DNA of 64,000 nucleotides from Pseudothermotoga elfii DSM 9442 = NBRC 107921 (lineage in GTDB: Bacteria > Thermotogota > Thermotogae > Thermotogales > DSM-5069), in NCBI RefSeq assembly GCF_000504085.1, contig NC_022792.1, forward strand, positions 744,001 to 808,000. Reading direction: 5' to 3'. Of the stretch, positions 27,621 through 36,129 are shown in pieces. The position numbers and the translations under genes were made by a program. The notes beneath the pieces are model-generated. The model ran no database searches and was not told where the DNA came from. It saw only the letters and a program-made list of their open reading frames with translations. Positions within the stretch are counted from its first letter, which is position 1, and every line of letters begins with the position of its first letter.

Positions 27621-29033
27621 TCACCCCAAAATTGATTTGATTCTTGCTGCCACTTCATTAGGACCTAAGAGAAAAACAATATCCACAAGCTCTGGTCCTT
27701 CGTGTTTACCAGTCAGAACATATCTCAACGTGCTGTAAAATTCTTTCGCACTCACCTTTTGTTTTTTTATTGTTGACCTGAATACTTCCACAATAGAATT
27801 TTTATCAGAACGGTCAAGGCTTTCAAGTTTGTCGGCACATTCGAGCATGGCACACTTTATTTGATATTCCGTTTCCGTTTTTATCTCTGGCTTCACAAAG
27901 AAGAAATCTGCAACATGTTGAAAATCTTCCAGAGTGTGGAGTCTATCCTTAACAGCAATTATTACTCTGCGTAACCAATCCTGATTCCTGGGTATGAAAT
28001 TCCATTTTTCCAGCAAAGGTTTTAAAAGTTGCTCCAGTTCCTCTTCGTTTGTAGATCTTATGTATTGGCCGTTCATCCAGCTGAGTTTTGCTGGGTCAAA
28101 AATGGCCGGATTTTTGCTAAGTCTATCTATGGAGAATCTTTCAATCATTTCCTGCATGGACATTATTTCTTTTGCATCTGGTGAAGACCATCCAAGCAGG
28201 GCAAGATAATTAACAACGGCTTGAGGCAGGTATCCTCTTTCTCTGAGTTCTTCGATTGAGGTTGCACCATGCCTCTTACTCAATTTCTTTCCATCCGGCC
28301 CGAGAATTGTCGAAACATGTCCAATTTCAGGGGGTCTGGCAGAAAAGGCTTCATATAGCGCGAGTTGTTTCACAGTATTTGGCAAGTGATCGTCCCCACG
28401 TATGACATGCGTTATTTGCATGAGCATATCGTCAACAACGCAGGCAAAATTGTAAGTTGGTATCCCATTGCTTCTCAGTATAGCAAAGTCTCCCACAGAA
28501 CCTTCAGAAAATTGCACGGTGCCTTTTACCAGATCATTGTGAATAAAGGCCTTTCTTGGCATTGAAAAATATATAGCTGGTTTTAATCCTTTCTCTTCAT
28601 ATTCTCTTTTGCGTTCTTTTGTAGCGAATGGTTCGAAGATTGTGCGGTCATAATGGGGGGTCAGCCCTTTCGAAAGCAGTTTTTCTCTTATCTCTTCTAT
28701 TTCTTCGGGATAGGCAAATACTTCATAGGCTTTGTCAAGGGCAATTAGTTTTTTTGCATATTCTTCGTATATATTCAATCGCTCACTTTGCCTGTATGGG
28801 CCGAAAGATCCTCCTATATCTGGTCCTTCATCCCAATTTAGTCCTAACCATTGAAGTGTCTTCATAAGATTTTCTTCGAAAATTCCTTCTGAACGTGCTA
28901 TGTCTGTATCTTCTATTCTCAGAATGAACTTTCCGCCATGATGTTTTGCAAAAAGATAATTAAAAAGGGCTGTTCTTGCTCCTCCAACATGGAGATAGCC
29001 GGTTGGGCTTGGTGCAAATCTTACTCTAACCAA
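27621..29033 (-). CDS. gltX: Glutamyl-tRNA synthetase
   Basis: A 470-residue class I synthetase. The HIGH motif is present as HVGG in '[19 protein letters not shown]', with KLSKRHG as KMSKS. '[12 protein letters not shown]' is the usual Glu/Gln synthetase segment. The C-terminal about 150 residues form the anticodon-binding helical domain. Thermotoga species are known to have two GltX proteins, one of them tRNA-Gln specific; which one this is cannot be told by eye. TTG start 6 bases after GGAGGTG. Confidence 0.96.
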
Positions 29034-29045
29034 TTCCTACACCTC

Positions 29046-29675
29046 CTACTTTTCAACCTTTTTTTTCACGAAAAACCAGAGATAAAGATCGAATTTTCCC
29101 GGGCTTTCACCGAATTTTTCTGCCTCAAAACTCAGGAGTCTTTCAAAGATCAGATATCGTTTTTTGGTGAGTGTCTTTGGAATTTCTTCTATTATATTGT
29201 ATCTATGCATAAGTGATAAGACATGCCTGTCCAAAATTGCCAGTTTTTCAACGCCAGTGTTTCTTAGAAAATGACTGGCTTCCTTATAGCCAATTCCGAT
29301 TGCATTGTTGACCAACCATTCACGTGCTTCGAATGGATCGATAGTTGTCAGTTGTTTCAATTGACCAATGATTTTGCGGTTCTTGATTATGTATGAAGCC
29401 CTCGCCTTTGGAAACCTGTGGCCGAGTTCTGAGAGTTTTTTTGAAAGTTCGTCTTCATCCAAATGAATAAAACCAGCTTTTCCAATTAACTTCTGGGCTT
29501 TAATTCCGCCCTGAGCGGTCCAGTTCGCGGTCAAAACGCAAAAACTGAGCTCACTGAAAAGTTCTTCTTCGGTCCCATTAAGACCGAGATTTTTGAATTG
29601 TCTGAACCTTTCTTCTACAAGATCTTTTGCTTCTTCTCTTATTTTGAGTAATTCATCAGATAAAGATACTGTGAT
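29046..29675 (-). CDS. ogg: 8-oxoguanine DNA glycosylase/AP lyase (Ogg2/COG1059 type), non-canonical start
   Basis: A helix-hairpin-helix DNA glycosylase that excises 8-oxoguanine. The core is clear: 'GIGYKEASHFLRNTGVEKL' holds the HhH and catalytic Lys, 'AILDRHVLSLM' the catalytic Asp, and 'GKFDLYLWFF' the family C-terminus. The first usual start is TTG 29534, which leaves 162 residues and no ribosome site. Homologous sequence continues upstream in frame (…SDELLKIREEAKDLVEER…) to a strong GGGAGGAG (29676-29683), yet no ATG, GTG or TTG occurs in that frame before a TAA. I place the 5' end at ATC 29675; GTA 29667-29669 is another option. Confidence 0.8.
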   Translation of the reverse strand: MTVSLSDELLKIREEAKDLVEERFRQFKNLGLNGTEEELFSELSFCVLTANWTAQGGIKAQKLIGKAGFIHLDEDELSKKLSELGHRFPKARASYIIKNRKIIGQLKQLTTIDPFEAREWLVNNAIGIGYKEASHFLRNTGVEKLAILDRHVLSLMHRYNIIEEIPKTLTKKRYLIFERLLSFEAEKFGESPGKFDLYLWFFVKKKVEK

Positions 29676-29689
29676 CTCCTCCCAAGCTG

Positions 29690-29718
29690 ATTATATCAAT
29701 TTCTTGTGTGAAACAAAA
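29690..29718 (-). promoter_or_regulatory. Promoter of the ogg-gltX-cysS-glyA operon
   Basis: Minus-strand TATAAT (29690-29695) with TTTTGT (29713-29718) 17 bases upstream. It starts transcription a few bases before the ogg ribosome site and overlaps the divergent fur promoter, so the two may be co-regulated. Confidence 0.55.
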
Positions 29719-29758: not shown

Positions 29759-30160
29759 ATGTCTTTGGATCAGATAGTAGAGCTTCTTAAAACTTATGGT
29801 TTGAAAATAACTCCTCAGCGGGTGGAAATACTGAAATTTCTGGACAGCAACAGAATTCATCCAACAGCCCAACAGATATATGAGCATGTGCTCTCGAGAG
29901 TGGGAAGTGTTTCCTTCACAACAGTCTATAATACCTTGCACACTCTGGAGCAAATTGGTTCAGTAAAAAGAATCGCTATAGATGACAGCCTGACTATATA
30001 CGATATAGACACAAGCAACCACGGGCATTTTGTATGCAAGGTGTGTGGAAGAATATACGATATCCCATACGAAATAAAAGCAGATCTGCCTGGAAAGGCA
30101 GAAAGAACAGAATTGATAGTTTATGGAGTTTGCAGGCAGTGCGAAAATTATCCTCAATAA
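29759..30160 (+). CDS. Fur-family metalloregulator, PerR-like
   Basis: A 133-residue repressor. N-terminal winged helix with 'TPQRVEILKFL' and 'SFTTVYNTLHTLEQIG' (recognition helix). The C-terminal dimer domain has 'HGHFVCKVCGRIYDI' and a second Cys pair 'CRQC', together the structural Cys4 zinc site common to PerR and many Fur proteins. The regulatory site includes HPTA and the DTSNHGHF segment. Sitting divergently from an 8-oxoguanine repair gene, an oxidative-stress role of PerR type is plausible but not proven; Fur or Zur roles cannot be excluded. Confidence 0.9.
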   Translation: MSLDQIVELLKTYGLKITPQRVEILKFLDSNRIHPTAQQIYEHVLSRVGSVSFTTVYNTLHTLEQIGSVKRIAIDDSLTIYDIDTSNHGHFVCKVCGRIYDIPYEIKADLPGKAERTELIVYGVCRQCENYPQ

Positions 30161-35451: not shown

Positions 35452-36129
35452 ATACACATATCGGTTTTTGTAAATGCGATTTCCGTTGCATCGGGGTCGG
35501 TTATCGGTATTTTTTTGGGAAAATCCATATCCGCCGGGATAAGAAGGATTCTCTTTCAGGCTGTAGGCCTAACTACTATAGGTATAGGAATTCAGATGGC
35601 TTTGGAAACATCAAATTTTATAATAGTTTTGCTTGCACTTGCATTCGGAGCTGTTGTGGGTGAATTTTTGCGCATAGAAGATATAATTGGTGCTGTAGGG
35701 AAATTTTCGAAAGATTCCCATCGTTTTACCAGTGGATTTGTTGCAGCTACAACTCTGTTTTTGGTTGGTCCAATGACTGTGGTTGGTTCGATAAGAGCCG
35801 GACTGGTTGGTGATGGCACACTAATCTATACGAAATCGGTTCTTGATTTTATATCTTCTATAATCCTTGCATCTATATACGGCATCAGTGTTCTCAGCAG
35901 TTCTATCGCTGTGTTAGTAGTCCAGGGGTTGCTTGTGATGGCATCATCACATCTGGTATTTTTAACTGATCAGAATTACCTGTCTAACTTTACAGGGGCA
36001 GGTGGGTTGATAGTAGTGGCGATAGGGATAAGACTTTTAGAGTTAAAAGAAATAAAAGTTGGGAATTTTCTGCCTGCTTTGATATTCGCACCGATCATAG
36101 ATTTTATAGTGGGAATGTTCATGAAATGA
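35452..36129 (+). CDS. DUF554 family membrane protein, apparent ATA start
   Basis: A 225-residue membrane protein with six or seven helices, DUF554 (YdfK/YqgA type), function unknown. The first usual start is TTG 35515, which has no ribosome site and drops the first membrane helix. Read in frame upstream, the codons from ATA 35452 give a sequence beginning I-H-I-S-V-F-V-N-A-I-S-V-A-S-G-S, which matches the conserved DUF554 start (G-T-x-x-N-A-x-x-V-x-x-G). A strong GGGAGGTGA (35439-35447) lies 4 bases before that ATA, and no ATG/GTG/TTG codon fits. The stop overlaps the next gene as ATGA. Confidence 0.8.
   Translation: MHISVFVNAISVASGSVIGIFLGKSISAGIRRILFQAVGLTTIGIGIQMALETSNFIIVLLALAFGAVVGEFLRIEDIIGAVGKFSKDSHRFTSGFVAATTLFLVGPMTVVGSIRAGLVGDGTLIYTKSVLDFISSIILASIYGISVLSSSIAVLVVQGLLVMASSHLVFLTDQNYLSNFTGAGGLIVVAIGIRLLELKEIKVGNFLPALIFAPIIDFIVGMFMK

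Follow-up and report, generated by a model that had tools for sequence, protein, structure and literature searches.

Very few non-canonical start codons have been characterised in bacteria, and gene callers restricted to ATG, GTG and TTG truncate or shift the genes that use them. In Streptomyces, sigR starts at a GTC codon that is kept in 32 of 34 species, has a conserved AGGAGGTG, and is repressed by IF3 (PMC5472188). In Staphylococcus aureus, ccpN starts at AUA and cvfC1 at AUU, each behind an extended Shine-Dalgarno sequence (SD) and with about 10% of the output of an AUG reporter (PMC13009471); the same paper cites an AUU start for Escherichia coli pcnB (Binns and Masters 2002).

We describe here the ogg locus of a 64,000-nucleotide stretch of DNA from a thermophilic Pseudothermotoga bacterium (the whole stretch analysed, hereafter the window). 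The comparisons presented below make it probable that ogg is a functional gene with a non-canonical start directly behind a strong SD predicted to lie at or near the 5' end of its mRNA, and we propose that this weak start sets a low output.

The ogg frame and its N-terminus

The features of the locus are as follows.

27621..29033, minus strand: gltX (glutamate-tRNA ligase; TIGR00464, 509.7 bits), directly downstream of ogg, with its own SD
29046..29675, minus strand: ogg (Ogg2-type 8-oxoguanine DNA glycosylase/AP lyase), full frame counted from ATC 29675, with the TAG stop at the 29046 end
29532..29534, minus strand: TTG, first canonical in-frame start codon of ogg, rejected as the start (conserved coding sequence upstream)
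29667..29669, minus strand: slightly favoured candidate ogg start GTA, at 8 nt from GGAGG; corresponds by homology to the ATT/ATA of G003, G006 and genus g3
29673..29675, minus strand: candidate ogg start ATC, 2 nt after GGAGG; alternatively part of an extended SD, GGAGGAGATC
29676..29683, minus strand: SD of ogg, GGGAGGAG, with GGAGG at 29682-29678
29690..29695, minus strand: putative -10 box TATAAT of ogg, 7 nt before GGAGG, including the in-frame stop TAA 29693-29691
29759..30160, plus strand: Fur-family regulator gene (PF01475, 92 bits), divergent from ogg

The best NCBIfam match of the Fur-family gene was the PerR-like NF052545, at 89.4 bits and below the cut-off of 180. The ogg stop codon TAG lies within TAGGAGGTG, ahead of the gltX start at TTG 29033, and the two genes are probably carried on one transcript.

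After the TAA, the ogg frame reads TCA GCT TGG GAG GAG ATC(29675) ACA GTA(29669) TCT TTA TCT GAT GAA TTA CTC AAA ATA AGA, and no ATG, GTG or TTG occurs down to TTG 29534. The first ORF listed for ogg is the 162-residue form beginning at this TTG; the full frame encodes 209 residues. From residue 5 onwards, the 209-residue frame matched NF002305 (N-glycosylase/DNA lyase; 272.8 bits, cut-off 183), and it also matched Pfam Ogg-HhH at 225 bits (cut-off, 27). The solved chain 3n0u was also aligned from residue 5 (E = 2.9e-85), with the block LLKIREEAK..ELSFCVLTANW conserved. The segments GIGYKEASHFLRN (HhH motif) and LAILDRH aligned with the solved archaeal Ogg 3fhf, and the Lys and Asp of the HhH region that we take to be the catalytic residues of this predicted enzyme are present.

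Translation from TTG 29534, the first canonical start in the frame, would give a truncated Ogg and leave the codons upstream untranslated. Residues 12 to 47, all of which precede this TTG, are 64 to 75% identical to those of relatives, the remainder of the protein being 61 to 67% identical, and codon differences in the upstream part fall mostly at position 3 (e.g., 10/4/20), a bias seen against every relative compared. Since these residues are conserved as much as the rest of the protein, and with both the profile and 3n0u matching from residue 5 and a strong SD lying 143 nt upstream of the TTG, we regard initiation there as highly improbable. On this comparison the 162-residue form is not the real Ogg protein and the N-terminus is intact. 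Among 390 genes in 464 kb of the same genome, ogg ranked first for a coding-like stretch ahead of the first canonical start, more than would be expected by chance. The original prediction, that ogg lacks a canonical start before TTG 29534 despite an intact N-terminus, is therefore borne out by the frame, the profile, the solved structure and the conserved residues.

A second route into the frame would have ribosomes start in the +1 frame, at ATG 29656-29654, and slip by -1 at TCAAAATAAG. The sequence ATG AAT TAC TCA AAA TAA does overlap the ogg frame, which a -1 slip following AAA would reach. However, this ATG sits 21 nt from the SD, TCAAAATAAG differs from the standard slippery heptamers, and the combination of +1-frame ATG and frameshift is not maintained in the aligned relatives, so that we give this route virtually no credence. 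The substitutions point to purifying selection on ogg, and its reading frame is unbroken.

Start codons of ogg across the family

The ogg loci were compared in ten genomes of the family to which the window (G000) belongs. All ten keep the order divergent Fur-family gene, ogg, gltX, and in all ten TATAAT is followed 6 to 7 nt later by GGAGG. The codons found after GGAGG (spacing in nt in parentheses) are as follows.

G000 (window): ATC (2), GTA (8)
G001: ATG (2), TTT (8)
G002: ATT (2), TTT (8)
G003: ATG (2), ATT (8)
G006: ATT (2), ATT (8)
G007: GTG (6), ATT (9)
G005, G008, G009, G010: ATA (9)

At 8 to 9 nt the codon was thus ATA in four loci, ATT in three, TTT in two, and GTA in the window. A canonical codon within 12 nt of GGAGG was present in only 3 of the 10, being ATG at 2 nt in two loci and GTG at 6 nt in G007, where nothing unusual is required; the seven loci without one are spread over three genera. 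In G000, G002, G005, G006 and G010 there is no canonical codon from the predicted transcript start to at least 14 nt past GGAGG. In G000, G005 and G010, 15 to 16 nt separate the opening of the ogg frame from the end of GGAGG, with the next canonical codon following at a distance of 57 to 143 nt. G008 and G009 have an in-frame ATG upstream at -24, ahead of the predicted transcript start. This survey makes an ogg without a well-placed canonical start the rule in the family. The weakness of the start is common to most of the ten loci, yet no single codon is kept. In the sister families, ogg starts with TTG (f2) or mostly with ATG (f3).

To our knowledge, TTT is not a known start class, and in G001 and G002 either the codon at spacing 2 works (ATG and ATT, respectively) or the genes are barely translated.

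The original prediction had allowed, as one option, that a start codon was recently lost, and the alternative that the canonical start disappeared by mutation or through sequencing error, in a gene that is decaying or mis-sequenced, draws on the ATG found at the ATC position in two congeners (G001 and G003), one base away from ATC. Such an ATG in a relative had been named in advance as a possible sign, together with read error, against an unusual start here. However, it lies only 2 nt from GGAGG, where a start codon in this clade hardly ever stands by itself, and no sign of read error was seen. The lack of a canonical start in 7 of 10 loci and the intact frame under purifying selection also speak against loss, which we consider quite unlikely; the weak start is shared across the family and is not a lone recent loss. 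The same ATGs were considered as proof of an ATG ancestor, and this reading was downgraded: lone short-spaced canonical codons are rare in the clade, and the DUF554 gene (see below) likewise has ATG inside GGAGGTGATG with ATA at spacing 8.

Which codon starts ogg

Starts in the five sampled genomes lie most often 7 nt past GGAGG, and for the most part 7 to 9 nt past it. Canonical codons 0 to 3 nt past GGAGG are probably decoys, since in the sampled clade genomes a second canonical codon nearly always follows 6 to 9 nt further on. The spacing is therefore normal for the ogg GTA but not for ATC. Both codons had been proposed as the start in the original prediction, in agreement with the present reading, and no canonical codon lies at a usable distance from the SD. 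Given the usual spacing and the apparent decoys, GTA 29669 is slightly favoured, and we put its use in the window at about an even chance; ATC 29675 is a strong contender, with a probability a little below even. Against the GTA position, G001 and G002 have TTT there, and spacing 2 may be used in the genus. The GAT that follows GGAGG-N also adds to the base pairing with the 16S tail (GATCACCTCC), and this may account for the ATC, ATT or ATG at spacing 2.

If the TATAAT is used, the ogg transcript is predicted to start at or beside GGAGG, which would leave about 8 nt of leader ahead of ATC or 14 nt ahead of GTA. In Thermotoga maritima one class of leaders is short, at 11 to 17 nt, which is reported to be the least that SD recruitment needs, and leaderless mRNAs were not found (PMC3636130). 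The predicted 14-nt leader falls within this class, and the 8-nt leader falls outside it.

Start selection across the genome and IF3

The original prediction had also proposed relaxed start selection in this organism and an inspection of infC for unusual residues. The stretches from which start sites were sampled make up about 40% of G000 and, for each of four other genomes, about 20%. Across these five Thermotogales genomes, 219 SD-defined positions had no canonical codon. CTG was about four times over-represented at SD-defined starts (16 seen versus 3.8 expected, p = 2e-6); ATA, ATC and ATT together (AUH) were not enriched (23 versus 19, p = 0.2). The non-canonical share of starts was 76/491 in G000 and 29/234, 45/240, 41/223 and 28/207 in the four relatives, so that in the sampled stretches start choice in G000 was no laxer than in its relatives. 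The IF3 of this genome aligned in the ordinary way with solved IF3 chains of the T. thermophilus and E. coli types, retaining, e.g., KFR, RRF, FRGRE and GRDM, and no oddities were found in this alignment. These three results give no support to a global relaxation through an unusual IF3, and neither the relaxed selection nor the unusual IF3 residues could be upheld.

Other genes with conserved non-canonical starts

Comparison of related genomes gave the following genes.

35452..36129 of the window, plus strand: DUF554 gene (PF04474, 221.6 bits), ATA start at 35452, 7 nt after GGAGG
L001:1246, plus strand: infC of G000, starting ATA, or ATC one codon earlier
L072:14146-15042, plus strand: mnmL/ytqA (TIGR01212, 354.7 bits); relatives read at L212-L221 and L230-L236
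L058:361, plus strand: uppP (bacA); relatives read at L264-L269, L273, L278 and L280
L063:17736 (plus strand), L123:12250 (plus strand), L240 and L241: dus (tRNA dihydrouridine synthase)

The DUF554 gene has no canonical start for 21 codons and upholds the claim of a second non-AUG start in the window. Its start site is ATA, ATC or ATT in 10 of 11 family genomes and TTG in the eleventh; in three species ATG occurs at spacing 2 inside the motif noted above, the conserved site being the ATA at spacing 8. Starts at ATA or ATC were found for infC in all 11 family genomes, with ATA in the window genus and ATC elsewhere. The start of mnmL is ATT at a spacing of about 10 in 9 of 10 family members and in all seven f3 genomes, the first canonical codon lying up to about 70 codons downstream and the frame opening one codon ahead of the ATT in several genomes. 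This ATT was assigned from an alignment read by hand; automatic best-SD calls chose the preceding codon because the ATT is at spacing 10. A CTG start follows GGAGGAAGG[A/C]TT in uppP in 9 of 10 family members read, the tenth (G004) having TTG-ATG. All four genus members have ATT as the start of dus, and genus g3 has ATG.

As ATA, ATC and ATT all encode Ile, protein conservation could account for part of the conservation of codon class, and the Ile codon at the DUF554 start varies as freely as internal Ile codons. For mnmL, ATT is the start throughout the nine f1 members while variation is seen in five of six other all-Ile columns, a modest argument for selection on the start codon itself.

From these alignments, related species have in common a few genes whose non-canonical starts are conserved. 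The wider hunch behind the original prediction therefore holds for some genes (infC, mnmL, DUF554, uppP and dus) but not as a bulk excess of AUH starts.

Several further sites were observed. In G022, infC (L174:4242, plus strand) has ATT at spacing 9 and a decoy GTG at spacing 0 that is the likely pick of gene callers. A NUDIX hydrolase gene (L071:16829, plus strand) carries GTA at spacing 8, and 20 codons pass without a canonical start; this is a possible second GTA start in G000. Two genes with matching N-termini (APKYRLIEQFLL.. and LPKYRIIEKFLI..), probably GntR-type regulators, were found in different families (L149:18715, plus strand, in G021; L133:18799, minus strand, in G007), each with ATC at spacing 9 and no canonical start for 11 to 33 codons. 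Apparently orthologous membrane permease genes show ATA in G000 (L063:11423, minus strand) and ATC in G007 (L135:13131, minus strand), each of these codons being at spacing 9, and a decoy GTG lies closer, at spacing 0 or 3.

Proposed explanation and significance

Across the loci compared, the ogg start looks like a conserved way to hold Ogg output low and not like an error. We propose that the strong SD would recruit the 30S subunit, that fMet-tRNA would pair poorly with the start codon, and that IF3 would reject most of the resulting initiation complexes. Ogg would be made at a low level as a result of this poor pairing and rejection, while gltX on the same transcript would use its own SD and TTG. 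Because infC of this family itself starts with ATA or ATC, the same IF3 discrimination system is probably present. We infer the identity of the ogg start codon, its dependence on IF3, and low dosage as a selected trait.

The weak start might also be neutral drift, a very strong SD tolerating almost any codon in a gene whose output matters little. This alternative keeps the non-canonical start and differs from selection for low output only in its cause. For ogg itself it has to be taken seriously, since the codon is not fixed (GTA, TTT, ATT or ATA); the enrichment of CTG across the order and the unusually strong SDs of T. maritima (PMC3636130) also fit it. On the other side, SD-defined starts show no bulk excess of AUH codons, and mnmL, uppP and DUF554 hold the same weak start class over deep divergences, which would not result from drift. 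We consider drift a substantial possibility, at roughly one chance in three. Returning to selection for low output, a broader and rather doubtful extension is that the Thermotogales set (infC, mnmL, dus, DUF554, uppP, ogg and others) may be under common control through IF3 activity or initiation fidelity, so that envelope output, DNA repair and tRNA modification would all be tied to the condition of the initiation machinery, with the 5'-end SD of ogg as an extreme form.

These results correct how Ogg, a DNA-repair enzyme, is annotated. The Thermotogales list (mnmL with AUU in 16 genomes of two families, uppP with CUG, DUF554 with AUH, and ogg) provides test cases for an IF3 regulon versus autoregulation alone, and start-codon choice versus SD strength becomes testable in a thermophile.

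Comparison with known systems

Non-canonical starts discriminated by IF3 are already known. Neither ogg nor the Thermotogales set was found described in the literature searched, which does not imply absence elsewhere. The autoregulated infC (AUU, AUC or AUA) resembles ogg in having a non-canonical start behind a strong SD. It differs in its single codon class, normal spacing and feedback loop, whereas the ogg codons are variable and have no known link to IF3 level. Like ogg, ccpN and cvfC1 combine an extended SD with a weak start and are conserved between species; they are other genes in another phylum, and the SD of ogg appears to lie at the mRNA 5' end. According to the citation noted above, pcnB is likewise a nucleic-acid enzyme gene held low by a poor start codon, but it is a single E. 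coli gene outside any conserved set. A further parallel is sigR, which is related to oxidative stress, has a strong conserved AGGAGGTG and a GTN start, was overlooked by gene callers, and has a downstream partner gene made in excess, as proposed here for ogg and gltX. In contrast to ogg, sigR encodes a sigma factor, and its GTC is conserved and its repression by IF3 shown; ogg encodes a repair enzyme and is known from sequence. Both mnmL and sigR keep their start codon as such, whereas that of ogg varies among GTA, ATT, TTT and ATA at a spacing of 8 to 9 nt.
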